64,000 bases of DNA from Fibrobacter sp. UWP2 (GTDB lineage: Bacteria; Fibrobacterota; Fibrobacteria; Fibrobacterales; Fibrobacteraceae), in the NCBI RefSeq assembly GCF_900141705.1, contig NZ_FQYM01000006.1:1-64000 (forward strand). The letters are read 5' to 3'. Every line of letters begins with the position of its first letter. The first letter of the stretch is position 1. This document shows positions 25,512 through 50,571 of the stretch, piece after piece. The notes beneath the pieces were generated by a model, which was not told the DNA's origin, searched no databases, and saw nothing but the letters and a program-made list of their open reading frames with translations. A program made the translations under genes and the position numbers.

Positions 25512-26942
25512 ATGGATATTTTAGTTGTCAGCCCTGAAGCCGGCAACTGGGAAGCCCCCAGCCCGCTGGTGACCGCGGTGAACCGAATGACGGATGCATT
25601 CGGCAGGGCCGGTGCTAACGTCTTGACCTGCTCCCCCTTCTACAAAGACCACCTGATGCACGTCGAGAACTACGAGTGCATTTTCCAGGGGGTCGAGCGC
25701 CTGCAGGGCAAGCCCTTCGAGGTCTGGAAGTCCAAGTCGGACCCCCTGCACACCTACATTTTTAACGAAGACTACTTTGGAAGGCCCCACGTTTACGGGC
25801 CGCCGCACAGCGTCCCCTACGGCGACAACCACCGCCGTTTCGCCTTCCTCGCCTCGGCGGCACTGAGCTACGCCATCGAGACCAAGGTCAACTACACCGC
25901 CATCCTCGGCCACGAGTGGGGCGGCGCCCTCGCCGGCGCCCTCACGCACACCGTGTACCAAAACGAGTTCGGCAACGTCCCGTTCTTCTTCACCATCCAC
26001 AACATCACCTACGACTTCCACGTGGGGTCCGGCGAAATTGACGCCATCGGCCTCCCCCGCGAAGACTACAACATGGATGGCTACGAGTTCTGGGGCAAGG
26101 TGAGCCTCCTCAAGGCGGGCATTTGCTACGCCCACAAGGTGCTGTTCCCCTCGCCCGGCTACCGCGACGCCATGCTCAACACCAACCTGCCCGGCGGCCT
26201 CAGCGGCTTTTTGAGCCACAACGCCGACAAGCTCATTGGCGTGCAGTTCGGCGTGAGCTACCAGGTGTGGGACTTTAACGCCCAGGACAAGCTCCCCATC
26301 AAGGAAGCCAAGCACAAGGCAAAGGAGACACTCGCCAAAAAGCTGGGCTCGAACTTTGGCAACAAGCTGGTGCTGTACGTGCACCTGGACGAAGAAGCGG
26401 GCAACACCTCCGAGACCCTCGCGACCGTGCTCTCCGACATCACCAAGCTCGACGTGTTCATTGTGGTGGGGCTCTCGCCCGAGCACCCCGAGTGGAACTA
26501 CTTTAACGACGTCTCCAAGCAGTACCCCGACACCATGAAGGTGCTGGAGCTCACCCCCAACTTCGAGAGCATCTCCACGCTGCGCGGCGCCCTGGCAGGC
26601 TCCGACGTGCTGTTCGCCGCCAACCTGCGCGAGCCCTCGTCGTCCATCATCTTGAAGGCGCTCGCCTGCGGGACGCTCCCCCTCACCGGGTTCAACGTGG
26701 GCGTGGCCAGCAGCCTGGACGACTACGCCCCCGAGACCGCCGGCAACGCGAACGCGTTTTTGGTCGAGGACGCCAACGCGCCGCACCTGATGCTGCGCCG
26801 GCTCAAGGACGCGCTCCACGTGTACCAGAACGAAGTCGCCGACTGGGACAAGGCGGTGGTGAACGCCTACAGCGGGTTCCACTACGAGTGGGACCGCACG
26901 ATTTCGAAATATTTGCTAATATTGGGCGAGCTGGGACTTTAG
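25512..26942 (+). CDS. Degenerate glycogen synthase-like (GT5) protein
   Basis: GT-B-fold protein of 476 residues, the length of GlgA, with recognisable GT5 segments: a Rossmann N-terminus (MDILVVSPEAG), the LGHEWGGALAGAL and TIHNITYD motifs, and a C-terminal lobe (DVLFAANLREPSSSIILKALACGTLPL) retaining the Glu of the FEPCGL position. The N-terminal KTGGL donor-binding motif and the C-terminal STGGLxDTV motif are absent (replaced around PSPLVTAVNRM and VASSLDDYAP). It may have changed donor or be a non-catalytic partner. Its last codons overlap the tRNA gene by 10 bp. Confidence 0.75.
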   Translation: MDILVVSPEAGNWEAPSPLVTAVNRMTDAFGRAGANVLTCSPFYKDHLMHVENYECIFQGVERLQGKPFEVWKSKSDPLHTYIFNEDYFGRPHVYGPPHSVPYGDNHRRFAFLASAALSYAIETKVNYTAILGHEWGGALAGALTHTVYQNEFGNVPFFFTIHNITYDFHVGSGEIDAIGLPREDYNMDGYEFWGKVSLLKAGICYAHKVLFPSPGYRDAMLNTNLPGGLSGFLSHNADKLIGVQFGVSYQVWDFNAQDKLPIKEAKHKAKETLAKKLGSNFGNKLVLYVHLDEEAGNTSETLATVLSDITKLDVFIVVGLSPEHPEWNYFNDVSKQYPDTMKVLELTPNFESISTLRGALAGSDVLFAANLREPSSSIILKALACGTLPLTGFNVGVASSLDDYAPETAGNANAFLVEDANAPHLMLRRLKDALHVYQNEVADWDKAVVNAYSGFHYEWDRTISKYLLILGELGL

Positions 26943-27006
26943 CTCAATTGGTTAGAGCCGCGGACTCATAACCCGCTGGTTCCCGGTTCAAGTCCGGGAG
27001 GTCCCA
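26933..27006 (+). tRNA. tRNA with CAU anticodon (Ile2 or elongator Met)
   Basis: Full cloverleaf of 74 nt: acceptor GGGACTT/AGGTCCC, D arm GCTC/GAGC, anticodon loop CTCATAA, T arm CCCGG-TTCAAGT-CCGGG, discriminator A, no encoded CCA. The top of the anticodon stem has one A-C mismatch. The CAU anticodon fits tRNA-Ile2 (lysidine-modified) or elongator Met; not initiator, since the first pair is G-C and there is no GGG/CCC anticodon stem. I lean to Ile2. The first ten bases overlap the preceding CDS. Confidence 0.9.
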
Positions 27007-27011
27007 CGAGA

Positions 27012-27046
27012 AAGCGCTCTCCGCAAAGGAGGGCGCTTGCTTTTTT
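27012..27046 (+). terminator. Terminator of the tRNA gene
   Basis: AAGCGCTCTCC pairs with GGAGGGCGCTT (one G-U) around GCAAA, then six T. Confidence 0.88.
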
Positions 27047-27068
27047 AAATGGGGCACCGACAAAGACG

Positions 27069-27130
27069 ACCTCGGGGGTGTTCTCGAAACTTGCGTCGGG
27101 GCGGCAATCATCATCTGCGGCTTAACGGTC
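27069..27130 (+). pseudogene. Deletion scar of the SMR-type transporter gene
   Basis: The first half (GGGGGTGTTCTCGAAACTTG region) is identical to codons for GVFSKLAS in the SMR genes at 28568 and 31398. It then jumps, at a shared CGTCG, to bases encoding VGAAIIICGLTV, the C-terminal end of the same family. About 230 bp of the gene centre are missing. It seems to preserve the original 3' end that the copy at 28568 has lost. Confidence 0.7.
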
Positions 27131-27719
27131 AAACCCCCGTCAAATCCAGTATTTCTTTAGCGCAGTCAAGAACCTGCGGCAACGTTATCCCTTTAGCAAA
27201 CGGATTCTTGGCAACAAATCTTTTCCAAAAGTCATTTTGAACCAAATCCACTTTAATCGATTCTAGGATTTGCGGATATCCTTCCAAAGTTTCGAACGTA
27301 TTCCGCCGGCGAGAAGTCGCTTCAAGAGCAATCCTTAGCGTTTTGAAGTTTATTTCATCTTTCTTCAATGCATAAAGCATATACACATCGTAGAAATCTC
27401 TAGTTCGTGTATTAGCCGCACCTCTCGAAACAATTGTATCAAGTTTTTCCGCAAAAACATTCTCTAGCGGATAAGCCAAAACCGGAATCTCCTTATCGTC
27501 AAACACGCACTTATACATATATTCTATTTCATGGGGAATGATGGTATCTCCAGTTGTAAGATCTACAGTCAAAGGAAGTTTGCGGAACCTAGAAGCAGCA
27601 ATTCTGTCCAGCAAGCGTTCGAGGCAATACATTTGCAAGGTTGCTTGAGGCGTGATTCCAAATTTTACAGACAGGCCCTTCAGTAATGCCTTTAGCTTCA
27701 TCTCGTTATTCGTAATCAC
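27129..27719 (-). CDS. AbiEii-family toxin with internal deletion of the catalytic core
   Basis: Member of the AbiEii nucleotidyltransferase toxins. The N-terminal part (ITPQATLQMYCLERLLDRIAASRF) and the C-terminal part (LTVDLTTGDTIIPHEIEYMYK...LAYPLENVFAEKLDTIVSRGAANTRTRDFYDVYML) are well conserved. The intervening 70-80 residues with the catalytic GG...DLD-type motif are missing without a frame break, giving 196 residues instead of roughly 280-300. It is therefore probably inactive as a toxin. ATGA overlap with the antitoxin gene. Confidence 0.85.
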   Translation of the reverse strand: MITNNEMKLKALLKGLSVKFGITPQATLQMYCLERLLDRIAASRFRKLPLTVDLTTGDTIIPHEIEYMYKCVFDDKEIPVLAYPLENVFAEKLDTIVSRGAANTRTRDFYDVYMLYALKKDEINFKTLRIALEATSRRRNTFETLEGYPQILESIKVDLVQNDFWKRFVAKNPFAKGITLPQVLDCAKEILDLTGV

Positions 27720-28318
27720 AGCAACACCTCTAAATACGTCCTGAGTTTTTTTTCTACATGAAAAGTCTTTGCGAGTTGCAACAATTTCGGAATATTCTTT
27801 TCTTTACGGCTGGCGTACGTTTTAATTGCATAGGTTATTGTCTGGATATCGGCCGCAACTTTGGCCGTCATGATTTCGCACAAGGTCCTTTCGGCAGAAT
27901 AGGCACGCACAACGTTACCTAAGGGCGTTTTGACTTCTACAATTTCAAGAGGATAAAGATTCTTCGAAGAATGCTTTACCACAATTCCATTTTTTGCTAG
28001 AGAGGGCGAATGGTAGAACCCCTTAAACGTCATGGTCCACATAAACGGCGCGCGTTCTGTCAGAGAATGCAAGAACAAAGCCGTTTCGCACGAGAATACG
28101 CCCGTCGGGCAACGATGCTGCAAATTCAGGAGTTCGTCCTCTTGTGCCGATTCCAACTGATACACTCCGCGCGCAACCCTTACGATTTTCCCGACATCGG
28201 AAAGCTGTTTCAGGATCATCCTGTGGATACCTGCAAGCGAAGCCTGCTTCGCAGTAATCCGCCCGCCCTTTTCCAAGAGAAGGTTCATTAGTGTCTTTTC
28301 TTTATTATTGACATTCAT
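27716..28318 (-). CDS. AbiEi-family antitoxin / transcriptional regulator
   Basis: 200 residues. The N-terminal winged helix (LLLEKGGRITAKQASLAGIHRMILKQLSDVGKIVRVARGVYQL) is the AbiEi_4 DNA-binding part; the C-terminal domain (YSAERTLCEIMTAKVAADIQTITYAIKTYA) is typical of AbiEi. It neutralises AbiEii and represses its own operon in known systems. The ATG at 28318 is chosen because a perfectly spaced promoter ends seven bases upstream; a longer frame back to 28372 would run through that promoter. Confidence 0.88.
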   Translation of the reverse strand: MNVNNKEKTLMNLLLEKGGRITAKQASLAGIHRMILKQLSDVGKIVRVARGVYQLESAQEDELLNLQHRCPTGVFSCETALFLHSLTERAPFMWTMTFKGFYHSPSLAKNGIVVKHSSKNLYPLEIVEVKTPLGNVVRAYSAERTLCEIMTAKVAADIQTITYAIKTYASRKEKNIPKLLQLAKTFHVEKKLRTYLEVLL

Positions 28319-28354
28319 ACTAATAAATATACAAGATATTAGTACAAATGTCAA
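28318..28354 (-). promoter_or_regulatory. abiE promoter with embedded operator
   Basis: Minus-strand -35 TTGACA (28349-28354), 17-bp spacer, -10 TATATT (28326-28331). Only seven bases separate the -10 box from the ATG, so the transcript is probably leaderless. An 8-bp inverted repeat TACTAATA (28318-28325) / TATTAGTA (28337-28344) brackets the -10 box, a good site for autorepression by AbiEi. Confidence 0.75.
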
Positions 28355-28387
28355 TACCTTCAGTTCGTTCATTTTTCTCTTCTCTCC

Positions 28388-28441
28388 GCTTACATGCTTG
28401 AAAAGGCGGGGCTAAAATGGCACTTCTGCACACTTGTGCAC
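28388..28441. promoter_or_regulatory. Shared upstream element of defence modules, copy 1
   Basis: Contains TACATGCTT, a C/G-rich pairing block (CCGC...GCGG) and the palindrome TGCACA-CT-TGTGCA at 28427-28440. The same ordered blocks recur at 31203-31260 upstream of the ATPase module, so they belong to the duplicated cassette border. Confidence 0.6.
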
Positions 28442-28550
28442 TACAAATATAAATTCACCAATGCCATTTGTCAATACCTAGAATAGTTTTTTGAATATTC
28501 CGCATTCCCGCCCGTTTTCCCGTTTCCGCCTGTTGCGGCAGGGCGTATTA

Positions 28551-28753
28551 TCTATATTCCCCGCTAGATGCTCACAGTCCTTAAATACATCGCCCTGATC
28601 GGCACGTTCTTCATCTACACCTCGTCGGGGGTGTTCTCGAAACTTGCGTCGCAGCGGGAGTTCCTGTCGCCGGGGTACATCGCATTCCTCGCCTGCACGG
28701 TGGGCGTGCTGGGAATCTACGCGGTGCTGTGGCAGCAGATTATCAAGCGGATG
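28551..28753. repeat. 203-bp direct repeat, copy 1 (SMR 5' half)
   Basis: By eye identical to 31381-31583 except five substitutions. It starts 18 bp before the SMR start codon and ends after the codons for QIIKRM. Downstream of this point the two SMR copies share only protein-level similarity. Confidence 0.9.
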
Positions 28754-28879
28754 GACGTGAGCCTGGCCTACATGTTCAAGGGCACGGGCGTGGTGTTCGG
28801 GCTACTGCTTGCGCACTTCGTGTTTGGCGAGGCCATCACCACGAAGAATATCGTCGGGGCGGCAATCATCTACAGTTAG
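28568..28879 (+). CDS. SMR-family membrane protein, C-terminally truncated
   Basis: 104-residue small multidrug-resistance/DMT-type protein with four hydrophobic helices, ending prematurely at VGAAIIYS. The full-length paralogue at 31398 continues for about nine more residues of the last helix. GC-rich throughout, like the core genome. Probably a relic left by insertion of the ATPase/nuclease module. Confidence 0.72.
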   Translation: MLTVLKYIALIGTFFIYTSSGVFSKLASQREFLSPGYIAFLACTVGVLGIYAVLWQQIIKRMDVSLAYMFKGTGVVFGLLLAHFVFGEAITTKNIVGAAIIYS

Positions 28880-29081
28880 TAAGGATTCCTTACATACTGA
28901 ACTCTAGGACGCGCAACCACAACCCGAACATTCGCGTACACTTTACAACACCGAATAAGCATAAAAGTTCATTCAATACTAATACGGCCACCAAAGTGGT
29001 CGAATTTGACCACTTTGGTTTATCCGAGTACCACTCTGCAGCGCCCACCCCTAACGCAATGCAGATCCAAAGACAATTCAC
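28880..29081. other. Intergenic, cassette junction
   Basis: About 200 bp between the truncated SMR gene and the end of the nuclease gene. It includes a perfect hairpin AAAGTGGTC-GAATTT-GACCACTTT near 28993-29016. Not followed by a clear T-run in either direction. No coding signal. Confidence 0.5.
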
Positions 29082-29750
29082 TCAAGAGTATCTAAATTTC
29101 TTGACAAACTCTCTGTCGAATTGATCTGCACTATATACATCAGCAGATTTAAACACGTAAGATTCTAATTTTCTAAGAAAGCGACAAGAGTCCGGCATCG
29201 TCATTTTTGCTTTTTTCGCCTCGCGAATCCTATTCAGCTCATTGTCAACCTTATCTTTCCCTATCACCAAAATAAACTTGCAATATTTTTTCACAAATTC
29301 AAACGGAGAGATTTCTGTCGTACAGGAACTATAAGCGTCGAATGAAAAAAGTTGTTTCCTTTGCATTTCATCAAGAATTTTAAACAGCCAAAAGACATTT
29401 GCATAAGATTTCTTCACGCAATCCTCTTTCACTTTTTTACTACTTATATATTGATTTTTAAACTCAATAAAATACCAATAACCATTTGAATCTATCAAAA
29501 ACGAATCTACCGATGCTGGGGCAACATCTTTCCGAGGCGGGCCACCAAAATGAATTCTAGCAACAACATTTTGTGCAATCGAATCCATTGAAATTGAGTT
29601 CAAATCCTTATACTCAGACGTAAAAACATTTACCGAATTCGCATCATCCAAAGACAATTCATGCAATGTTTTTTCAATCTGTATCGGATAACCCGCTTGA
29701 TTACAGTACGTATTCAGCAGGTTCACAAACTTCTCATACATGCTCATCAT
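29082..29750 (-). CDS. Putative PD-(D/E)xK-type nuclease partner of the AAA ATPase
   Basis: 222 residues, unrecognised overall. A PD-(D/E)xK-like core is visible: VDSFLIDSNGYWYFIEFKNQ, with D82 or D87 followed by E96-x-K98, and a helix after it. That arrangement is typical of defence and restriction nucleases. Its ATGA overlap with the upstream ATPase gene implies equimolar production. I infer a two-component anti-phage or anti-plasmid effector; no named system is assigned. AT-rich, likely transferred. Confidence 0.62.
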   Translation of the reverse strand: MMSMYEKFVNLLNTYCNQAGYPIQIEKTLHELSLDDANSVNVFTSEYKDLNSISMDSIAQNVVARIHFGGPPRKDVAPASVDSFLIDSNGYWYFIEFKNQYISSKKVKEDCVKKSYANVFWLFKILDEMQRKQLFSFDAYSSCTTEISPFEFVKKYCKFILVIGKDKVDNELNRIREAKKAKMTMPDSCRFLRKLESYVFKSADVYSADQFDREFVKKFRYS

Positions 29751-31105
29751 TCAACCCCGTACTTTTCTTTGATTTCGTCAATAAGAAAACTCGGTTGAAC
29801 GAGATTACTGTAAATCTTTTCCAATTGTCCCGTTACATTTTCAAACGAGACTAAATCAGAATTCTGAATGCAAGAAGCAAAGTAGTATGAGCAGACATCA
29901 CTTGTCTTGTGGATTTTAGAATACAAATCCAAGGCTTCCAAAAAATGGGAACTATGCGTCGTCACAACAACAGTCAAATTGAACGTTTTCTGAAGAAGAA
30001 CGATGATTTCTGCATACTTCAGCTGCCATTTAGGATGCAAATGCACTTCCGGCTCGTCCAAAATAAGAACATCCCTTTCTTTCAAGCCTTGATTCAAGAG
30101 GAGGCGTTTGATAATTGCGAAAGCTTTTAAACCCGTTGACAAGGAATTGACGGATAAGGCTTTTCCGCTTTTTTCCCGCCTGTACAAATATCCATCATGA
30201 GTGTTATCAATAGAACCAGGAGCTACTTCATCCAGTTCATCAAGAATCTTTTGCAAGCCTTCGCTAACAATCATTCTTGAAAGCGCTTCGTCCTCTAAGG
30301 CTTCATTCTTTTTCTTCTCATTTAACGAAATGAGCTTATTTGTTAAATTTCTTACCCACGGAGCCTCCCTATTCTCATAAATCGTCAATTGGTTCAATCT
30401 ATCCAACACGAACGGATTGTCTATATACGTAGCAGAATTAACCAAAGAAATTTCTCTACGCATAGACTCTAGAGAATCGTCACGAAATACTAATTCAATT
30501 GGTCTATTTTTCACCAACAACCCGACGGTAGCATCGGCATCCGGATTGTCAATGTTATTAATTCGTTCATTGAAAATCTTTTGGAAAGCCAGCGAAACAA
30601 CCGATTGCGCCACTTTTTCGTCTGGAATAGACAGAACTTTCCTTATCGACTCGGTAATTTGCGTTTTCAAGTCTTCATTGTATGTAATTTCAAACTCTTT
30701 TTGTCTTTCTTCAAGATTCCGTAGATACGCATCAAGCGCATCCGTTTTATTTTCCGAAACAACCAAATCATCAATAAATTCTCGCGTATATCTAAATGCA
30801 CTTTGAGATATACTTCCGTGCGAATTCAGGTTATTCTGATGAAGAAGCGAATTGAGTTCTTGCTGAATGCTACGCTTCTTCGCCAGCACAACTGATTTGT
30901 CAATATTGGCTATGGCGCTAAACATCCCATACAAAATTTTCCCCACGGTACTTTTCCCAGTATCGTTCAAACCGGCAATCGCAGTTATGCCGTCCAACTT
31001 AATACTGGCAGTCTTTATTTTTGCAAAATTTTCAATGCTTAATTCCATTGGCGTTTTCTCGTGGAAATTTTGATCATTCTCATTCCCCTCAAATCTAATT
31101 AACAT
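29747..31105 (-). CDS. AAA/SMC-like ATPase (OLD-type ATPase domain without TOPRIM)
   Basis: 452 residues. Walker A GLNDTGKST lies near residue 45, followed by a long helical/coiled middle (about 80-300), an ABC-type signature region (SVNSLSTGLKAFAI), Walker B DVLILDEPEVHLHPKWQ and the TTHSSHFLEAL motif. No TOPRIM domain follows, unlike full OLD nucleases, so nuclease activity must come from the partner gene. The ATG at 31105 has GGGGGAA at good spacing. The defence role is inferred from architecture and island context. Confidence 0.85.
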   Translation of the reverse strand: MLIRFEGNENDQNFHEKTPMELSIENFAKIKTASIKLDGITAIAGLNDTGKSTVGKILYGMFSAIANIDKSVVLAKKRSIQQELNSLLHQNNLNSHGSISQSAFRYTREFIDDLVVSENKTDALDAYLRNLEERQKEFEITYNEDLKTQITESIRKVLSIPDEKVAQSVVSLAFQKIFNERINNIDNPDADATVGLLVKNRPIELVFRDDSLESMRREISLVNSATYIDNPFVLDRLNQLTIYENREAPWVRNLTNKLISLNEKKKNEALEDEALSRMIVSEGLQKILDELDEVAPGSIDNTHDGYLYRREKSGKALSVNSLSTGLKAFAIIKRLLLNQGLKERDVLILDEPEVHLHPKWQLKYAEIIVLLQKTFNLTVVVTTHSSHFLEALDLYSKIHKTSDVCSYYFASCIQNSDLVSFENVTGQLEKIYSNLVQPSFLIDEIKEKYGVE

Positions 31106-31202
31106 AAGTTCCCCCGTCAGCCACACGACAATCTAGGATAACCCATCGGTCTCTCAAAATCAGCGTTTTGTCTTCGACATCTTTCATCTTTCACTCCTTC
31201 CC

Positions 31203-31260
31203 CCGCCTACATGCTTAAAAAAAACGGGGCGAAAACAGCATTTGATGCACATTTGTGCAC
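31203..31260. promoter_or_regulatory. Shared upstream element of defence modules, copy 2
   Basis: CCCCG...CGGGG pairing block around TACATGCTT, then the perfect palindrome TGCACA-TT-TGTGCA at 31246-31259. Same order as 28388-28441. It lies upstream of the ATPase gene and may be its operator. Confidence 0.6.
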
Positions 31261-31380
31261 TACAATTTAATTTCATGGACGCCCCCTGTCAAGAGGTTTA
31301 CGGAAAATTTTCAAAAAATTTCTCATCGCTCCCGAAACAACTCAGATATCCTCGCATCCAAGCCATCTCCCACATATAAA

Positions 31381-31583
31381 TCTATATTCCCCGCTAGATG
31401 CTCACCGTCCTTAAATACATCGCCCTGATCGGCACGTTCTTCATTTACACCTCGTCGGGGGTGTTCTCGAAGCTTGCGTCGCAGCGGGAGTTCCTCTCGC
31501 CGGGGTACATCGCGTTCCTCGCCTGCACGGTGGGCGTGCTGGGAATCTACGCGGTGCTGTGGCAGCAGATTATCAAGCGGATG
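31381..31583. repeat. 203-bp direct repeat, copy 2 (SMR 5' half)
   Basis: Partner of 28551-28753, five mismatches by my reading. The pair flanks the ATPase/nuclease module directly, so homologous recombination between them would delete it. Confidence 0.9.
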
Positions 31584-31733
31584 CACATAAGCAAAGCATA
31601 TATGTTCAAAGGTTTGACTGCAATCTTTGGATTGCTCTTTGCAAATCTCATCTTCGGCGAAATAATCACACTAAAAAACGCCATTGGTACCGTTTTTATC
31701 ATCAGCGGCATAACACTGTTCGCAAGGGCGTAA
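31398..31733 (+). CDS. SMR/EamA-like small transporter, chimeric gene
   Basis: 111 residues, four hydrophobic helices, family of EmrE/ArnE-type proteins. The first 62 codons are GC-rich and nearly identical to the copy at 28568; the rest is AT-rich (MHISKAYMFKGLTAIFGLLFANLIFGEIITLKNAIG). The gene is a recombinant with its border at about 31583. It is 1 bp from a second SMR gene, and the two likely form a heterodimer. With the GT2 nearby, an ArnEF-like flippase for a polyprenyl-linked sugar is plausible. Confidence 0.82.
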   Translation: MLTVLKYIALIGTFFIYTSSGVFSKLASQREFLSPGYIAFLACTVGVLGIYAVLWQQIIKRMHISKAYMFKGLTAIFGLLFANLIFGEIITLKNAIGTVFIISGITLFARA

Positions 31734-31734
31734 A

Positions 31735-32070
31735 ATGTTCTACGTTCTCGTGTTATTCAATATCTTTGTTGCCGGGGTGGCTCAAATGCTACTGAAGAAA
31801 TCGGCAGCAACCAAACACGCATCGTTCATTCGGGAATACCTGAATCCATGGGTCATCGGCGGCTATTCACTAATGATGTTCTCATTGGTTTCCAATATAT
31901 TTGCAATGAACCACGGTGTTCTTTTGAAGGAACTTGGCACTCTTGAAGCCTGCGGGTATTTGTTCGTCCCAGTACTCAGCTACTTCTTTTTCAAAGAAAA
32001 AATCAATCTTCAGAAGGTTATCGCAATCGTACTCGTGCTAACAGGCGTTGTCGTATTCTTTTGGGAGTGA
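31735..32070 (+). CDS. Second SMR-family protein, probable heterodimer partner
   Basis: 111 residues with four membrane helices (about 1-20, 38-55, 70-88, 92-110). It has the FFFKEKINLQKVIAIVLVLTGVVVFF ending of EamA/SMR proteins. It directly follows the other SMR gene and overlaps the next start (GTGA), so flippase and phosphoglycerol transferase-like enzyme appear to be one operon. Substrate unproven; ArnE/ArnF-like export of an undecaprenyl-phosphate sugar is my inference. Confidence 0.82.
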   Translation: MFYVLVLFNIFVAGVAQMLLKKSAATKHASFIREYLNPWVIGGYSLMMFSLVSNIFAMNHGVLLKELGTLEACGYLFVPVLSYFFFKEKINLQKVIAIVLVLTGVVVFFWE

Positions 32071-33863
32071 GCATAGCAATTGCGGATTTGAAGATGGACT
32101 CCTATAGCATCAACTTCTTTGTAGCATCAGCAGTAGCAGCTATCTTGGCCGTTTTCCTAACTCGTCGCAAACGATTCAGCCTGACGGCGTTATTCATTGT
32201 TCCTGTACTGCATTATGTGCTGTTCTACAACTACGACAGCGGACTTGTTGGCGGCATTTCTCCTTTTCTGGTGCCCTATGCGGGAGCAATCTACGCAGCA
32301 ATTCTCTTTGCATTTTTTCTCTCATATAAAGCAGTCTCTAGCCAACAGATTTCTGGGCGCAAGCAATCCGTTGTCCGCATAGTCCTTGCATGCATCGTAC
32401 TTTTTTTGCTTATCCTGTATTCGCAGGCAATCCCCTGGGGCATAGACACGTTCCCTCTCTCAAACGTTGAGGTAATCCTTTTCACGGTCTTTGCCGGAGC
32501 CAACGAAGGTTCCGAAGAATTCGTCATATCAACATTCATATCAGATGCGCTCCGCTCAGCTTCTTACCTGTTCGCGTGTTTAGTAGCCCTACTAGTCACC
32601 CTTTCCGCATTTTTGTCAAAATGGAATACCAAAGTTGCTTTTCATTTTTGGAAACTGAAACTTATACTTGCTGAAAGGGAGTTCTTAGAAATTCTTGGAC
32701 ATCTCGAAAAATTTTCTCTTGTTGCCGTAGCCGCATACTGCCTCGTAATCTCCCTTGTTATTCCAGGAATCGTGACTAGTGCCCCATTACACGTTCTTTT
32801 CCAAAAGCCCGTCGACTCGAAGTTGTACCGAGAACATTATGCAAATCCTGATTCCGTCAAGATAACTATTCCGCAACAGCCCAAAAATCTCATCGTCATT
32901 TTCCTTGAATCGATGGAAACGAACTTTGCCCGATATACCCCCGAGATTGACAGTCTCTTTAAGCAATGGGGCTTTGCCCCCGGTGGCGTGAATGTATCGG
33001 GCACCAGCTGGACCATTGCGGGAATTACGGGCAAGCTCTGCGGTATCCCGCTGAACATGCCCATGGGCATCGACGAATACCACGGCAAGCTACCCACCTA
33101 CCTGCCACACGCTAGTTGCCTCATGAATGTTCTAGCAAATCAGGGCTACGAGCAGGTCTACGTGCAGGGGTCGAGTGGCGACTTTACGCAAAAGCGCGAC
33201 TTTTGGAAAGTACATGGAAATGTCGCCATCCACGACATCGAATATTTCAAGGAAGCCGGAAAGATTCCGCAGGACTACAAGGTGTTCTGGGGATTCGAGG
33301 ACCGCAAGTTATATGGGTTCGTCAAGGAAGAGCTGGACAGCCTCGCCGAACGCGGCAAGCCGTTTGCGCTCTACATGCTTACCGTTGACACGCACCAGCC
33401 TTTCGGCTACACCGATGAATTGTGTCAGGAGAATGTTACTGACAAGGAAGGGAAATTTCCGCAAGCCTTACGTTGTGCATCGATGCAATTGAGCGAATTT
33501 CTCGACTGGGCCAGCAAACAGCCCTGGTTTACAAACACAGTCATCTCAGTCATGGGCGACCACACGATGGACATGCTTTCTGCAAAGGCGAATGTTCCGC
33601 CGCATGAGCAACTGTACTGGACAAACTTCATTCTGAATTCTACGTTACCGCTTCCCCAAAAAGCGTGCCAGTATTCATCACTTGACATGTTCCCCACGCT
33701 ACTTGAGTCAATGGGTTTCTCGCTCGAAAATCGCGCTATGGGGTTGGGCAAATCCCTGTATTCGAATGAGCCAACCCTACTTGAGCGTTATGGTCAAAAA
33801 ACACTGGACAGTCTCCTACGGGAAAGAAGCATCCAATACGACTATTTTTTGATGGGAAAATGA
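32067..33863 (+). CDS. OpgB/MdoB-like phosphoglycerol transferase (LTA synthase family)
   Basis: About 598 residues. N-terminal membrane helices (to about residue 250) carry a periplasmic alkaline-phosphatase-fold domain. The metal/nucleophile region is FLESMETNFARYTPEID then GTSWTIAGITGKLCGIPL, with the catalytic Thr as in E. coli OpgB; the distal metal motif is VMGDHTMDM. OpgB moves phosphoglycerol from phosphatidylglycerol to periplasmic glucans; here the acceptor may be a surface glycan. The GTG at 32067 overlaps the SMR stop; ATG at 32094 is the alternative. The 3' end overlaps the convergent GT2 gene by 22 bp. Confidence 0.87.
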   Translation: MSIAIADLKMDSYSINFFVASAVAAILAVFLTRRKRFSLTALFIVPVLHYVLFYNYDSGLVGGISPFLVPYAGAIYAAILFAFFLSYKAVSSQQISGRKQSVVRIVLACIVLFLLILYSQAIPWGIDTFPLSNVEVILFTVFAGANEGSEEFVISTFISDALRSASYLFACLVALLVTLSAFLSKWNTKVAFHFWKLKLILAEREFLEILGHLEKFSLVAVAAYCLVISLVIPGIVTSAPLHVLFQKPVDSKLYREHYANPDSVKITIPQQPKNLIVIFLESMETNFARYTPEIDSLFKQWGFAPGGVNVSGTSWTIAGITGKLCGIPLNMPMGIDEYHGKLPTYLPHASCLMNVLANQGYEQVYVQGSSGDFTQKRDFWKVHGNVAIHDIEYFKEAGKIPQDYKVFWGFEDRKLYGFVKEELDSLAERGKPFALYMLTVDTHQPFGYTDELCQENVTDKEGKFPQALRCASMQLSEFLDWASKQPWFTNTVISVMGDHTMDMLSAKANVPPHEQLYWTNFILNSTLPLPQKACQYSSLDMFPTLLESMGFSLENRAMGLGKSLYSNEPTLLERYGQKTLDSLLRERSIQYDYFLMGK

Positions 33864-34798
33864 TTTGGGAGTGAACCCTTTATTTCTTTAATCACATACT
33901 GCGGTGAATTGTTGATGCATATATAAATGCGACCAACATATTCGCCGATAAGACCGAGCATCATCAAGATGCAGCCACCGATTATAAGCATCAGAGCAAT
34001 AATCGAACTCCAACCAGCCACGCCAATCACACCAAGGCATTTCTGCACCACAATCACGATAGCGTATATAAAACCAACAATAGCAAAGAAAAATCCCAAA
34101 AATGTACTTACGCGCAGAGGCTTCACCGAAAATGCCGTGAAACCGTTGAGCCAAAGCCCTAGCAAACGAACAAACGAATACCCTGATGTTCCTTCAAGAC
34201 GAGAGCGATGATTCGTTGCAACATATCCAATCTTACGCGTGGTGCGAAGAACAAGACCAACAAGGTACGGGTATGAATTTTTGTAATTGCACATCTCGCG
34301 AATTACAAAACTGCGAGCTATATAAAAGCTACTACCAACAAAGTCCTTTGGTGGCTCCAACATAAATTTGCCCATGAGCCCTGCCATCCAGGAGCCAAAA
34401 CGACGGAACAGGTTCTGCTTGACAGCGCGATAGTAGGCATACACAACATCGAAACCTTCTTCCAGTTTAGTGATTAGGTCATTCAAAGAATCCAACGGAG
34501 CCTGGCCATCGTCATCCAGCGAAACCACGAACTCGCCAGAACACTTACCGTAGCCCGCCATCAAGGCGGAATGCTGCCCAAAATTTTTAGCGAGATTGAT
34601 GCCGATAACGTTGTTTTCCGTTTCGGCAAGTTTCTCGATAACATTCCACACGCCATCGGGGCTGCAGTCGTTTACCAGTACGATCTCGTAGTCATCGCCC
34701 GGACGCTTGGCGGCCATTTCGCTCTTGATTTCTTCGACCACAGTGGTGATGGTCTTTTCGGAACGGTAACACGGAATTACAAATGAAAACTTAGGCAT
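33842..34798 (-). CDS. ArnC/GtrB-like polyprenyl-phosphate glycosyltransferase
   Basis: GT2 enzyme of 318 residues with two C-terminal membrane helices (about 228-255 and 262-290). Motifs: FVIPCYRSEKTI, LVNDCSPDG, SLDDDGQAP (metal-binding DDD) and an FVGSSFYI segment. This is the DPM1/ArnC/GtrB type that loads a sugar from a nucleotide donor onto undecaprenyl phosphate on the cytosolic face. ATG at 34798 has AAGG eight bases upstream. Last gene of the leftward sugar cluster that starts with a WecE aminotransferase, so its donor may be an acylated TDP-4-amino sugar. Confidence 0.9.
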   Translation of the reverse strand: MPKFSFVIPCYRSEKTITTVVEEIKSEMAAKRPGDDYEIVLVNDCSPDGVWNVIEKLAETENNVIGINLAKNFGQHSALMAGYGKCSGEFVVSLDDDGQAPLDSLNDLITKLEEGFDVVYAYYRAVKQNLFRRFGSWMAGLMGKFMLEPPKDFVGSSFYIARSFVIREMCNYKNSYPYLVGLVLRTTRKIGYVATNHRSRLEGTSGYSFVRLLGLWLNGFTAFSVKPLRVSTFLGFFFAIVGFIYAIVIVVQKCLGVIGVAGWSSIIALMLIIGGCILMMLGLIGEYVGRIYICINNSPQYVIKEIKGSLPNHFPIKK

Positions 34799-34812
34799 AG
34801 GCAAGACCTTCT

Positions 34813-35874
34813 TCAAATTTCCACAATATCGCTAATTTTACAATCAACAAAGGGAACAATCGCCGTAGACCAAGCCATTCCCACACCAAAAGCGTTTAAC
34901 AACAATCTATGAGTTCCGCTCAATTTTCCTTTCAACTCACTCACAATTGTTAGAGGAATAGAAACTGAGGCTGTATTGCCGTATTTTGAAATTGTCCAAG
35001 GAATCTTTTCTGGATTAAGATTCATCTTTTTTATAAGATATTTATTTATGAACATATTTGCCTGATGAAATACATAATAATCCAGATTTTCAACATTTTC
35101 GCCAACCGTTCCCAAAAGGTTTCTAATATCTTTGGGCACTTCTTCTATAACAAAATTAAAAACATCATTTCCATTCATGGTTCCTTGTTCGTCAGATCGA
35201 ACATTACCATATTCATCAACAATTTTTTCGGTCAGCGTCTCTATCGAGCTTCTGTTGCGATATCCGCCAGCAGGAATCATTATCAAATCACCTCGGGACC
35301 CGTCTGAATTATTAGAAAAATAACTCGCTCCAAATTTTTCCTTCCGTTCAACTATAGCAGCGACTCCTGCATCACCAAAAATAAAGGCTTCTCGGCGATC
35401 TTTTGCTGAATATACTTTCGAATTCGTCTCTCCATCTAAAATCAGCGCCTTTCGAAAACCTCTTTTTTCCATCATAGCATAGACAATGTTCAATACAGGA
35501 ATAAAACCAGAGCATCCCAAATTAACATCAAATGCAAGGGTTGATTTAGATAGTTTTAAACGATCTTGAAGTAAAATTGATGTAGATGGCATTCGATAAT
35601 CAGAAGTCTGAGAAAGAAAGACCAACAACTCAATATCATCACGATTTATGTTGTTATCTGCAATTGTTTTTTCTGCTGCAAAGAAACACAAATCGGAAGA
35701 GCAAGTTTTTTCATCCGCAAAGCGACGTTCGTAAACACCTATTTTATCAACTATCTTTTTTATTTCCTGCTTAGACCATAAATCTAATCCATAGTTATAG
35801 TTATCTATAACCCTTTTTGGAACACAAGCAGCCATTGCTGTTATTCCGACATTTTTGTATGATGTTATTGGCAT
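34813..35874 (-). CDS. 3-oxoacyl-ACP synthase III family protein (KASIII-1)
   Basis: FabH-like thiolase-fold enzyme, 353 residues. The triad is visible: Cys121 in NLGCSGF, His in FHQAN near residue 271, Asn in YGNTASVSIP near residue 301. Such enzymes condense acyl-CoA with malonyl-ACP. It is AT-rich, 4 bp after the SDR gene, in a set with a dedicated ACP and a second KASIII, so it serves a pathway-specific acyl group and not housekeeping fatty acid synthesis (inference). Confidence 0.9.
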   Translation of the reverse strand: MPITSYKNVGITAMAACVPKRVIDNYNYGLDLWSKQEIKKIVDKIGVYERRFADEKTCSSDLCFFAAEKTIADNNINRDDIELLVFLSQTSDYRMPSTSILLQDRLKLSKSTLAFDVNLGCSGFIPVLNIVYAMMEKRGFRKALILDGETNSKVYSAKDRREAFIFGDAGVAAIVERKEKFGASYFSNNSDGSRGDLIMIPAGGYRNRSSIETLTEKIVDEYGNVRSDEQGTMNGNDVFNFVIEEVPKDIRNLLGTVGENVENLDYYVFHQANMFINKYLIKKMNLNPEKIPWTISKYGNTASVSIPLTIVSELKGKLSGTHRLLLNAFGVGMAWSTAIVPFVDCKISDIVEI

Positions 35875-42178: not shown

Positions 42179-43012
42179 CTAAAGCTTGTTAAACTTTCTC
42201 ATTTCTTTGTCCAGGAACGGATCCACGAATTTTGCATAAATCAACGTTGTTTCCAGATTCCGGTGGCCGAGCAGCTTGCTTGTAGCGGGGAGCGGGATTC
42301 CAAGTGTTATGCAGGTCGTGGCGAAGGTGTGCCGAGCCAAGTGGCAGTGGATGTACTTGCTGTGTCCGAGTTTTTGTGCCGCGCTGCGCAACGACCTGTT
42401 GAAGTAGGAGTTCTCGACCACCCTGAAAACTGGGCCGTTTGTCATTTTTTCGGGCAACAACAGGCGCGCCTGCACCGGAATGGGAATGTACACCGGGTCG
42501 CCCGTCTTGTGCATCTGCTTGCGGATTTTCCAGTCGAAAATCTCGTTGCCGTTTAACGTTTTCAAATCGCTGTAACGCAATCCGGTAAAGCAACTGAACA
42601 AAAAGACCCGCATGGTGTCCTGTTCTGTTTGCGTCAGGAACCTCCTCTTTTCTTCAAAACTCAGATAAAGGCTTTTGAGTTCGCGTTTTGTCAAGAAGCC
42701 TCTCCGAGTGTAAACCCGTCCAATCTTGATTTTGTCAAACGGGTTAACCTTCAATAGTCCGTCTTGAAACATCCGGTTTGTAAAATTCCTGAAAACGGAA
42801 AGGGCTTTGTTTATGGTACTCTGCTTGTTGCCTTGCTGAATCAGGTAAGTCTTGTATTCCTGTACCAGTTCGGTGGTTACGTATTCGCACTCCAAATCTG
42901 GGCAAAAATTTGAAATTTTCTTCAAATTCCAGTAATAGGCCCGCACCGAAAGCGGCGCAAGATTGTATTTTTCCTTGTCCAAATACTGCATTGCGGTATC
43001 AAAAAAGAGCAT
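42179..43012 (-). CDS. Tyrosine recombinase (phage integrase family)
   Basis: 277 residues. N-terminal SAM-like core-binding domain (about 1-100), then the catalytic domain with R146 (TGLRYSDL), H224/R227 (HLARH), H250 (LLGHRN) and nucleophile Y259 (LIYAK). All key residues are present, so it should be active. ATG at 43012 has AAGGA six bases upstream. It is read away from the truncated pilin cassette whose 48-bp repeat begins 75 bp from its start. No excisionase, phage or transposon genes are nearby, which favours a dedicated invertase role over element mobility (inference). Bacteroidetes use similar recombinases for local inversions. Confidence 0.9.
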   Translation of the reverse strand: MLFFDTAMQYLDKEKYNLAPLSVRAYYWNLKKISNFCPDLECEYVTTELVQEYKTYLIQQGNKQSTINKALSVFRNFTNRMFQDGLLKVNPFDKIKIGRVYTRRGFLTKRELKSLYLSFEEKRRFLTQTEQDTMRVFLFSCFTGLRYSDLKTLNGNEIFDWKIRKQMHKTGDPVYIPIPVQARLLLPEKMTNGPVFRVVENSYFNRSLRSAAQKLGHSKYIHCHLARHTFATTCITLGIPLPATSKLLGHRNLETTLIYAKFVDPFLDKEMRKFNKL

Positions 43013-43086
43013 AGGGATTCCTTTTTTTGTTCCGGACCATCCAGAAACAGGGGACAAAGTTAGGACTATTACTCAGAGTGCGTTTT

Positions 43087-44068: not shown

Positions 44069-44374
44069 ATGTGGAACGAAATGACGACCCCCTCTATCTT
44101 GAAGGAAATGGGTTCAAGGCTCAAGGAATACCGCCTGCGTAAAGGGCTCATGCAGTCCGAACTGGCGGAATCTGCCGGTGTTGGTGTTGGTACGATTGCC
44201 AAGATGGAGCGCGGGGGCGCCGTGTCAGTACAAATTCTGTTGAGCGTTCTGCGTTCCCTCGGCATGCTCGAGAATATAGAGCAGCTCCTGCCGGAACCTC
44301 CCGTGAGCCCGCTCCTTTTGCGCAGGCTACAGGGAGGCAAGATCCAACGCATAAAACGGAGCAAGGCCAAATGA
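44069..44374 (+). CDS. hipB: HipB-like XRE-family antitoxin/repressor
   Basis: 101 residues. The helix-turn-helix (MGSRLKEYRLRKGLMQSELAESAGVGVGTIAKMERGG) occupies residues 14-51; the basic C-terminal tail (RRLQGGKIQRIKRSKAK) may contact HipA or DNA. It overlaps hipA by ATGA. Antitoxins of this family bind HipA and repress the operon. It lies inside the inverted-repeat pilin segment. Confidence 0.9.
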   Translation: MWNEMTTPSILKEMGSRLKEYRLRKGLMQSELAESAGVGVGTIAKMERGGAVSVQILLSVLRSLGMLENIEQLLPEPPVSPLLLRRLQGGKIQRIKRSKAK

Positions 44375-45657
44375 GCGAACTTGTCGTAAACGTGCGATTG
44401 TGGGGCAAGCCTGTCGGAGCGTTGTCGTGGGATACTTCGCGGGGTGTCGCCTATTTCGAATACGAGCCCGCCTTTGTTCGTAATCCGTTGCCGGTATCAC
44501 CCATAAAGATGCCCGTGGAGAAGGGCGTTTTCTCTTTTGCCGAGAACCGGAACAACTGTTTTCGCGGACTCCCGGGACTCATTGCGGATTCTCTGCCGGA
44601 CAAATTCGGTGACCAGATTATTTCGGAATGGTTTCAGACCATGGGCCGCCCGCTAGAGACAGTGACTCCGCTGGAACGCTTGTGCTATGTCGGTAAGCGC
44701 TCTATGGGCGCACTGGAGTTTGAGCCCAGTTTGTCTACACCGGGGCTTGACGAGTCTACGGAAATTCTTGTGGACGACCTCGTCAAGTTGGCCGAGAGCG
44801 TTTTCCGCGACCGCGAAAAGTTCAGGGAGAAGCTTGTCCAGCAGGATAAGACCTTGTACGACATCTTGCGAGTCGGCACTTCTGCCGGGGGCGCAAAGCC
44901 CAAAGCGATTATCGCCTATAACGAATCTACGGGCGAAGTGCGCAGTGGCCAGGTTCCTGCGCCAAAGGGGTTCGGCTATTGGCTGCTCAAGTTCGACGGC
45001 GTAAGCTACCGCGAGCACGACAGCATTACCGAAATACCCCGCGGGATAGGCAACGTGGAATACGCCTACTACAAGATGGCTTTGCAGGCTGGGATTTGCA
45101 TGAGCGAGTGCCGCATTCTGGAAGATAGCAGCGGTTGCCATTTTATGACTAGGCGTTTCGACAGAAAAACTGACGGGGCCAAACTGCACATGCAGACACT
45201 TGCGGCCTTGGCACACCTGGACCGCGACGTGCGCCATTCCTACGAAGACTCCTTTGCCGTGATGCGCAAGCTCGGGCTCGACGCCAAAGCAGACGAGGAC
45301 GTGTTCCGCTGCATGGTCTTCAATGTGTTTGCAAAAAACAATGACGACCACACCAAGAACATTTCTTTCTTGATGGACGAGACCGGAACCTGGAAACTGG
45401 CGCCCGCATACGATTTGTGCTACGCCAACGATCCGAGGAGTCGCTGGATAAAACGCCACCAGATGTCGGTGAACATGAAACAGGAAAATATCACACGCGA
45501 AGACCTCAAGGCGGTGGCGGAACGCGTCGGAATCCGCAAATACGCGGCCATCATGGACCAGGTCGAAAATGCGGTCGCCTGCTGGAACGAGATTGCGAAG
45601 GACTGCGGCGTTCGCGAAAACCACCGTGAGGAGATTTCGCGGGAACTGCTTAAATAA
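44371..45657 (+). CDS. hipA: HipA-family serine/threonine kinase toxin
   Basis: 428 residues, full length for HipA. Hallmarks: N-terminal domain (VRLWGKPVGALSWD), the glycine-rich loop VGTSAGGAKPKA, the catalytic loop NVFAKNNDDHTKNISFLMD and the metal-binding LAPAYDLCYA. E. coli HipA phosphorylates glutamyl-tRNA synthetase and causes persistence; targets differ among relatives. All catalytic residues are intact. It may help retain the segment between the pilin repeats, since its loss would free the toxin (inference). Confidence 0.92.
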   Translation: MSELVVNVRLWGKPVGALSWDTSRGVAYFEYEPAFVRNPLPVSPIKMPVEKGVFSFAENRNNCFRGLPGLIADSLPDKFGDQIISEWFQTMGRPLETVTPLERLCYVGKRSMGALEFEPSLSTPGLDESTEILVDDLVKLAESVFRDREKFREKLVQQDKTLYDILRVGTSAGGAKPKAIIAYNESTGEVRSGQVPAPKGFGYWLLKFDGVSYREHDSITEIPRGIGNVEYAYYKMALQAGICMSECRILEDSSGCHFMTRRFDRKTDGAKLHMQTLAALAHLDRDVRHSYEDSFAVMRKLGLDAKADEDVFRCMVFNVFAKNNDDHTKNISFLMDETGTWKLAPAYDLCYANDPRSRWIKRHQMSVNMKQENITREDLKAVAERVGIRKYAAIMDQVENAVACWNEIAKDCGVRENHREEISRELLK

Positions 45658-48651: not shown

Positions 48652-48792
48652 ACCTAATATAAATATAATTCCTTGGGGCACTTTCCAGACAACGATAAAC
48701 AACAAAGGCGTTGCCCGCAGACAACGGCATTTTTTGTGTTTTTTAGCATAAAAACGCAACTTTTACGCCAAACTTGTATATATATTGTTTTT

Positions 48793-50571
48793 ATGCAACC
48801 GCAACCGCTAAGACTTTCTGAGATTACCATATCGAACCTGCGCTCCATACAGAGGCAGACTTTCCCGTTGAGTGGCTTCACGGCGCTGATCGGCTACAAC
48901 AACGCCGGCAAGACGAACATTTTGATGGGGATCCGCTGGTTGCTTTCGCGCTTTTCGCTCGACATCTCGTACTTTGACGACCCCAACCGCCCCGTGGAGG
49001 TGGAAGGCGTTTTTGACGGCATCACCGAGACGGTACTGAACCGCCTGGGCGAAGAAAAGGCCGCCGAGGTCAAGCCGTTCCTCGCAGGCGACATGCTCAA
49101 AATCAAAAAAGTGCAGCGCGTGCCGGGCGAAGTGCCCGAGAACGTGGAGCTGTGGGCGTTTGTGCCGCCCAACCGCCGCAAAGACAAGCGCCAGGAGTGG
49201 GAGCGCATGGGCGACGCCTTCCGCCACGCCTTTAGCCGCATGTTCCCCCAGAGCATCGCCATTTGGGACTTTGAGGGCAACGAGGCGTTCACCAAGCTTT
49301 TGCACGAGATTTTTAAGCCGCTGGAACGCCGGTTTGGCGGCGAGTTCAACGACATCATCAACAAGTTCAGCGACATGCTGAGCCCGGGCGGCGAGAACCA
49401 GGCCGCCGAAATCCAGAGCTTTGACAGGGACGTGAACGAAAAGCTGCACCCGCTGTTCCCCAGCGTGCGCGTGGAGCTCGACATCCCCATCCCTACCCTC
49501 GAGACGTTCCTCAAAAAGGCGACGCTCAAGGTGATTGACGAAGACGACGGCTTTGAACGCGACATAAACCGCATGGGCGCGGGTTCGCAGCGCGCCATCC
49601 AGATGGCGCTCATCCGCTACCTCTCCGAGGTCAAAAAGCACCACAACAACCACTACCTGAGCCGCACCCTGCTGCTCATTGACTCGCCCGAGCTCTACCT
49701 GCACCCGCAGGCGGTGGAACTGGTGCGCGTGGCGCTCAAGAACCTCTCGAACGAGGGTTACCAGGTGGTGTTCGCGACACACAGCGCCCAGATGGTCACA
49801 AGCGAAGACGTGAGCACCTCGCTGCTCATCCGCAAGAACAAGGAACGCGGCACCTTTATGCGCAAACGAATGGAAGACGCCGTGCACCAGGTGGTGCAAG
49901 ACGCCCCGAGCCAGCTGCAAATGCTCTTTAGTCTCTCGAACAGCAACGAGCTCCTGTTTGCCGACTACGTGCTTTTGACCGAGGGCAAAACCGAGTGGCG
50001 CGTGCTGCCGGCGCTGTTCGAACGCATCACGGGCCAAAGCTTTGCGCTCATCAAGTGCGCCCTGGTACGCCAGGGCGGCGTGAGCAACACCCGCAAGAGC
50101 ATGCAGGTGCTCGACGCGATGGACATGCCGGTGCGCGCGATTGTGGACCTCGACTACGCCTTCACCACTGCCACCCGCGACGGCTTTTTGGAGGCGAACG
50201 ACCCCGACATCAAGTTCTGCCGCAACCTGTTCCGCGAACTCGCGTTCCACCAGCATTTGCGCCTGGTGAACGGGCTCCCGGTGAACAAGCACAGCAACAT
50301 TAGCGCCTCTAGGGCGTACGCCATGATGGCCGAGATGCCCGAGGCCGAGAAGGCCATCCGCAGCATCCACGCCAAGCTCCGCAGCCAGGGAATTTGGGTG
50401 TGGACCCGCGGCGCCATCGAAGAGCACCTGGGCCTGGAAGCCAAGAACGAGGCGGCCTGGAGCAATTTTATTGAACGGAGCAAGTCCAGGAACTTTATCC
50501 AAAATTTGCCGGACTACGACGGCATTGTGGAACTGTGCAACTGGATTATTGACGGCAGTAGAGATGCCTAG
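48793..50571 (+). CDS. OLD-family ATP-dependent endonuclease (AAA + TOPRIM)
   Basis: 592 residues. Walker A GYNNAGKTN near residue 33, a long insertion with helical arms, the signature-like GAGSQRAIQMALIRYL, Walker B LLLIDSPELYLHPQAVELV, the ATHSAQMV motif, then a TOPRIM domain starting LLTEGKTEWRVLPALF with DLDYAF as the metal-binding pair. OLD proteins act in phage exclusion; Gabija GajA is a relative, but no GajB-like helicase gene is adjacent. Codon use is GC-rich as in core genes. Divergent from the lipoprotein gene. Confidence 0.9.
   Translation: MQPQPLRLSEITISNLRSIQRQTFPLSGFTALIGYNNAGKTNILMGIRWLLSRFSLDISYFDDPNRPVEVEGVFDGITETVLNRLGEEKAAEVKPFLAGDMLKIKKVQRVPGEVPENVELWAFVPPNRRKDKRQEWERMGDAFRHAFSRMFPQSIAIWDFEGNEAFTKLLHEIFKPLERRFGGEFNDIINKFSDMLSPGGENQAAEIQSFDRDVNEKLHPLFPSVRVELDIPIPTLETFLKKATLKVIDEDDGFERDINRMGAGSQRAIQMALIRYLSEVKKHHNNHYLSRTLLLIDSPELYLHPQAVELVRVALKNLSNEGYQVVFATHSAQMVTSEDVSTSLLIRKNKERGTFMRKRMEDAVHQVVQDAPSQLQMLFSLSNSNELLFADYVLLTEGKTEWRVLPALFERITGQSFALIKCALVRQGGVSNTRKSMQVLDAMDMPVRAIVDLDYAFTTATRDGFLEANDPDIKFCRNLFRELAFHQHLRLVNGLPVNKHSNISASRAYAMMAEMPEAEKAIRSIHAKLRSQGIWVWTRGAIEEHLGLEAKNEAAWSNFIERSKSRNFIQNLPDYDGIVELCNWIIDGSRDA

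Follow-up and report, generated by a model that had tools for sequence, protein, structure and literature searches.

How does a small gene come to consist of two halves with different relatives, and why does its first half recur nearby between defence-type modules? Both questions are raised by SMR1, a gene of Fibrobacter sp. UWP2 that lies in the 64,000-nucleotide stretch analyzed here (contig NZ_FQYM01000006.1, positions 1 to 64,000), which we refer to as the window. They bear on a wider problem, since the growth of defence islands without recombinases is poorly understood. Throughout, R denotes the 671-bp unit formed by SMR1 and its partner SMR2, with the intact pair of another Fibrobacter genome, G070, as the reference.

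The recombinant SMR1 gene and its neighbors

The gene and the features on its right-hand side are as follows.

31398-31733, plus strand: hybrid SMR1 gene, intact, 111 aa
31380..31583, plus strand: ordinary GC-rich part of the third R block, consisting of 18 bp of upstream sequence and SMR1 bases 1-186
31584..31733, plus strand: AT-rich, divergent 3' part of the hybrid SMR1, recognized by sequence comparison
31735-32070, plus strand: divergent SMR2 partner, 111 aa, 69-76% protein identity to full-length relatives
32061..33863, plus strand: sulfatase-fold membrane enzyme resembling phosphoglycerol transferase I (Pfam, NCBIfam)
33842..34816, minus strand: family 2 glycosyltransferase resembling ArnC (Pfam, NCBIfam)

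SMR1 at 31398-31733 is an in-frame recombinant, and the chimera is well supported. Its first 186 bases differ at five positions from the SMR1 copy that starts at 28568 (181/186 identical, 97.3%). The GC content is 59.1% on the 5' side of the border versus 40.0% on the 3' side, and the GC3 values are 90% versus 49%. There is no such drop in the intact G070 copy, which is GC-rich throughout, and the 28568 copy keeps a GC3 of 87%. When a two-rate change-point model was fitted to comparisons with seven intact relatives, the border came out after base 182 or 186 (support intervals between 173 and 189), and two rates beat one rate by 25.7-44.1 log-likelihood units. Identity to these relatives is 92-97% 5' of the border and 57-61% 3' of it. 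The border is at codon 62, at the end of the motif WQQIIKRM, which is common even to relatives from Bacteroidota, Bacillota and Actinomycetota. The product passes the gathering cut-off of the EamA family (Pfam PF00892; 35.8 bits vs 28.2).

Protein trees were built separately from codons 1-62 and codons 63-111 of 31 sequences, omitting G051b, which has an early stop, and loci that were too short or fragmentary. In the 5'-half tree the window protein, which does not differ from the 28568 copy there, lies inside the Fibrobacter clade (support 97/97), whereas in the 3'-half tree it lies outside that clade, which is coherent without it (97/93). Its identity to nine Fibrobacter copies is 94-100% before the border and 53-55% after it, and the 3' half is about equally near to two Bacteroidales proteins (57%). 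The two halves therefore have different nearest relatives on either side of a defined border, as expected of a recombinant gene. However, a placement of the 3' half as the sister of the Fibrobacter clade is not rejected by the AU test (p 0.257, 49 columns), and the 3' half accordingly counts as a highly divergent relative, not necessarily a foreign one.

Most of what the first-pass annotation had said about this gene agrees with these results, namely that about 185 GC-rich bp are some 97% like the 28568 copy, that the gene is AT-rich from 31584 and matches that copy only as protein, that the border is in frame inside the shared codons QIIKRM, and that the halves would give different phylogenies (with the reservation that the 3' half may be a distant sister). 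Its claim of recombination is borne out by the different nearest relatives of each half and by the sharp in-frame border, and a full-length gene does stand just upstream of its partner. That recombination rebuilt such a gene does not follow, because an incoming 5' end replacing that of an intact divergent gene would give the same structure. Nor is the closeness to the 28568 copy special; a copy in G091 (G091:C25:2804) is equally near to the hybrid 5' part, at 97.3%, and the donor may have been a copy other than that at 28568. The annotation also overlooked the array to which both window copies belong, with its third relic and its intervening modules, and the recurrence of such arrays in other Fibrobacter genomes.

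The divergence does not end with SMR1. The gene order SMR1-SMR2-sulfatase is also present in G050, and identity between the window and G050 is 97% in 31440-31559, drops to 57-80% in the 60-bp steps of 31560-32159, and is then 70-92% as far as 33839 in the sulfatase gene. This profile indicates that the divergent stretch consists of the SMR1 3' half plus SMR2. Protein searches of 80 genomes of the genus gave an SMR1 match in 13 and an SMR2 match in 14, and the full-length matches elsewhere in the genus are 76-79% (SMR1) and 69-76% (SMR2) identical. Since these matches are no closer than this, these searches found no second AT-rich SMR pair, as donor or as recipient allele, in the 80 genomes.

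The pair is perhaps a lipid-carrier sugar flippase, judging from its sequence and neighbors. Like the ArnE/ArnF flippase and paired SMR pumps such as EbrA/EbrB, it consists of two adjacent short EamA/SMR proteins, and the likeness to ArnE/ArnF extends to neighbors that resemble ArnC and phosphoglycerol transferases. Unlike those systems, the NCBIfam scores are all far below the curated cut-offs: SMR1 is weakly ArnE-like (24.8 bits vs the NF011625 cut-off of 92), the glycosyltransferase ArnC-like and the sulfatase phosphoglycerol-transferase-like. SMR2 is also below the EamA gathering cut-off (24.5 bits vs 28.2).

Direct repeats of R and the modules between them

A DNA search of the 80 Fibrobacter genomes with 28365-28879 as the query found SMR1 sequence in at least 15 of them. 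The window itself has three R blocks, a relic at 27066-27127, a second block at 28550-28879 and the hybrid from 31380, and these alternate with modules as listed here.

26933..27007, plus strand: tRNA-Met (CAT), end of the glgA-tRNA block and start of the variable region
27066..27127, plus strand: R relic, R52-90 joined to R286-318 by an internal deletion (mapping onto R)
27129..27719, minus strand: AbiEii-like toxin gene, 196 aa (Pfam AbiEii, E 1.3e-18; PADLOC AbiEii)
27716..28372, minus strand: AbiEi-like antitoxin gene, 218 aa (Pfam, PADLOC)
28370..28454, minus strand: leader of the AbiEi gene, comprising a promoter and a hairpin (covariance model, E 8.4e-16)
28550..28879, plus strand: second R block (the 28568 SMR1 copy), SMR1 bases 1-303 with a stop soon after, 103 aa
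29082..29750, minus strand: 222-aa ATPase partner with no family match; 63% identical homologue in G042
29747..31126, minus strand: AAA_15/AAA_21 ATPase, defence-like (Pfam, PADLOC); 88% identical homologue in G042
31187..31272, minus strand: second leader, preceding the ATPase module (covariance model, E 3.2e-12)

Mapping the G070 R unit onto 15 loci gave 35 blocks, which were grouped by eye; pieces parted only by an internal gap were taken as one block, and two single weak matches away from arrays (G016 R542-561 and G003 R299-323) were left out. Twenty-four of the 35 blocks begin at R base 1. Half of these 24 end early at differing points; the other half, which includes the window hybrid, extends to the end of SMR2, in some cases with internal gaps. 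Nine of the 15 genomes (G000, G016, G091, G051, G056, G041, G044, G003 and G019) have at least two blocks that are 33 bp or longer, and G070 and G084 would join them if pieces of 17-21 bp were counted; many of the genus genomes are metagenome assemblies, in which repeats can be misjoined. Both strands were searched, and all of the blocks within a locus are direct, in the same orientation. The R arrays thus have the long direct repeats that characterize insertion with long target duplication. Exact R and leader patterns, sought as a sign of viral carriage, had no match in viral_contigs, exact matching being a weak test. Searches of open PubMed Central papers listed no description of arrays of this kind in Fibrobacter.

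Selected module ORFs from the locus list and the window were scanned against Pfam, ten per scan in four scans, and the matches include AbiEi/AbiEii of two types, RhuM-like proteins, AAA_14/DUF4143 ATPases, AAA_21 with RloB, HicB-like proteins, a CopG-type antitoxin, NYN, zeta-toxin-like proteins, DUF3990, putAbiC, a HigB-like protein with a peptidase M78 protein, and AAA_15 ATPases, while several ORFs matched no family. Among the module proteins scanned there was no member of a methyltransferase or restriction family, as would mark a restriction-modification system. Most module genes are antiparallel to R and some are parallel. The window AbiE module is 86-97% identical in five of 14 genomes, and three others have only short weak matches. 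G042, which has the same ATPase module (88% and 63%), has no SMR1 match.

A few details of the window modules deserve mention. AbiEii has 196 aa in the window versus 281 aa in G016 and G091, and the loss of a stretch in the N-terminal half means that the toxin may be dead. The true start of the ATPase may be the ATG at 31105; a 30-codon frame that runs from 31187 to 31095 after the second leader overlaps this likely start, and so the two may be translationally coupled. A 30-bp palindrome (93%) occupies 28990-29019, between the second R block and the gene for the 222-aa protein, and a similar stretch follows an R relic in G051. To the right of the array, the window also encodes a HipA-like protein (44371-45657) and an OLD-like ATPase with a TOPRIM domain (48673-50571).

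Many unrelated modules, of toxin-antitoxin or putative defence type, stand behind a leader that was seen in no other genus. This leader combines a TTGACA/TATATT-like promoter with a TGCACA-type palindrome and with a hairpin whose conserved loop is TTTCAAGCATGT; the hairpin lies just upstream of the ribosome-binding site. In an alignment of 16 leader sequences, 97.9% of the cells pair. Changes on both sides occur in seven cells, compared with a shuffled mean of 1.4, a type of count that kinship inflates; the number of pairs with such changes is two, which 151 of 500 shuffles reached. The covariance model, built from the 28370..28454 sequence among others, finds eight copies in this genome and has matches in 27 of 37 genus genomes, some of which supplied model sequences, and in none of 23 genomes outside the genus. 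By motif search, the hairpin was present in 19 of 37 loci, and an open frame behind it was reported in 13 of these 19. The genes behind the leader include AbiEi, RhuM, ORF6N, PDDEXK_2, a DUF4160 pair and AAA_15. An Rfam search for known RNA families in 26900-32200, at E up to 1, returned the tRNA and one sub-threshold match elsewhere. If the leader is truly regulatory, many unrelated modules would be under one control.

How the arrays may have grown

R differs far less between species than a core gene does. The first 186 bases are 87-97% identical between genomes. A comparison of third codon positions in one set of 21 genome pairs gave identities of 84% for SMR1, 75% for SMR2 and 52% for glgA, SMR1 being above glgA in all 21 pairs and SMR2 in 20; glgA is the single core gene used as the baseline, and R, with its high GC3, would agree by chance more often at these positions. 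The glgA gene is 72-79% identical, compared with 86-97% for the AbiE module in the five genomes mentioned above, and it is in pieces in G002 and G017, one of 106 bp at 88%. The end of one module can also join R at different points in different genomes. The end of the RhuM module meets R84/85 in two genomes and R272/273 in three, that of the AbiEii module meets R317/318 in four genomes, and that of the AAA_14/DUF4143 module meets R671 in four. A comparison of G017 with G084 is also informative: their aminotransferase genes are 90% and their R units 92% identical, and the gap between the two is 6 bp in one genome and about 1.1 kb with a RhuM module in the other. The far side of this module has only a 21-bp piece of R.

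Given the observed chimera, repeats, modules and excess similarity of R, we consider it probable that an R-module-R segment recombined into a divergent resident SMR pair and that the hybrid is the right-hand crossover. Since R flanks modules on both sides and is 87-97% alike between species, R-module-R DNA can enter by homologous recombination. Incoming DNA of this type would recombine within R in the ordinary way and duplicate it, and older R copies would then lose internal parts and 3' ends. The right-hand crossover in the window would have fallen in the conserved codons around codon 62 of a divergent resident SMR1, leaving the hybrid in front of the resident SMR2. The route, order and direction of these events, and host recombination as their agent, are what we infer; apparently, the arrays gain genes without a dedicated enzyme.

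An alternative is homology-facilitated illegitimate recombination, in which R would anchor one end and the other joint would be random, so that every event would bring in a module and truncate an older R at its 3' end. The blocks described above, 24 of 35 with a start at R base 1 and half of those 24 ending early at differing points, are what this route would give, and in the portions of PMC5361080 that deal with it, Kirchberger et al. propose it for T6SS immunity gene arrays. The same portions describe it as rare, however, and identical cut points recur in several genomes, which fits formed joints spreading by homologous recombination. We therefore regard it as a rather unlikely explanation of the arrays as a whole, but it could have made the first joints and is compatible with their homologous spread.

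Gene conversion within the genome would need no incoming DNA: the 28568 copy would have overwritten the first 186 bases of a neighboring divergent SMR1. The two window copies, 2.8 kb apart and 97.3% identical over those 186 bases, are suitably placed for this. However, the G091 copy is just as near, and pairs within a genome (91.9-97.3%, six pairs) are no closer than pairs between genomes (87.1-97.3%). Conversion also leaves the modules between the copies unexplained, and on balance it is unlikely.

The array, the glycan genes and a recombinase might instead be one integrase-borne island at tRNA-Met. Synteny with G070, G056 and G016 does stop at 27007-27012, the 3' end of the tRNA, and a tyrosine recombinase gene of the phage-integrase family is present at 42179-43057, 11 kb from the array, with a 75% identical homologue near the G070 array. 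This explanation is improbable, because the tRNA 3' end has no exact downstream repeat of at least 12 bases in the window, none of the 14 other array loci has a tRNA, and the recombinase is in only two of 15 array loci. Moreover, such an island would not account for the repeated R blocks. Finally, an assembly chimera in the window contig is very improbable: repeats are easily joined wrongly, and this genome has 72 contigs, but the hybrid is in frame and precedes an SMR2 of equal divergence, the G050 gene order continues through the sulfatase, and arrays are present in many separate assemblies.

Entry of R-module-R segments by homologous recombination leads to a broader suggestion, which we offer only tentatively. 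The Fibrobacter arrays could be an integrase-free cassette system, in which the flippase-like pair serves as portable homology arms for adding defence modules to arrays and exchanging them between arrays, many of the modules having a common promoter-hairpin leader; the hybrid would then be the scar of an exchange. Because relics, joints and hybrid genes at one type of locus keep the steps across species, the order of events can be read.

Comparison with known systems

Integron cassette arrays are strings of accessory modules, often toxin-antitoxin systems, and the Fibrobacter arrays share this property. Unlike in integrons, the repeated element in Fibrobacter is a gene pair of 671 bp, and a fixed site of recombination was not seen. 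A search with the window recombinase found no integrase common to the arrays, this recombinase or its homologue being present in the two of 15 loci mentioned above.

Integron arrays are also compared with T6SS immunity arrays in the sections of PMC5361080 on this subject. The latter arrays, from Vibrio cholerae, resemble those described here in that accretion is anchored in a conserved stretch and old pieces remain. According to these sections, immunity genes pile up behind effectors in V. cholerae, whereas in Fibrobacter it is the anchor that recurs, and the modules have no relation to it. Another likeness is to transformation merodiploids of Streptococcus pneumoniae, in which, in the results that concern us from PMC3784515, recombination between repeats leaves a hybrid repeat at the junction. 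Those are experimental large duplications between insertion sequences, whereas the Fibrobacter modules are small and accessory.

The last comparison is with insertion with long target duplication in Helicobacter pylori (Nobusato et al. 2000, as cited in PMC3031569 and PMC1643837). As outlined in excerpts of these two papers, restriction-modification systems are known with long direct repeats around them, and in both organisms defence-type genes lie between long direct repeats of chromosomal sequence. The genes are restriction-modification genes in H. pylori, on the evidence of those excerpts, and toxin-antitoxin and ATPase modules in Fibrobacter. The Fibrobacter arrays further differ from the H. 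pylori case, as it is outlined there, in three ways: one locus goes through many rounds, the repeat encodes a pair of proteins, and exchange crosses species borders.
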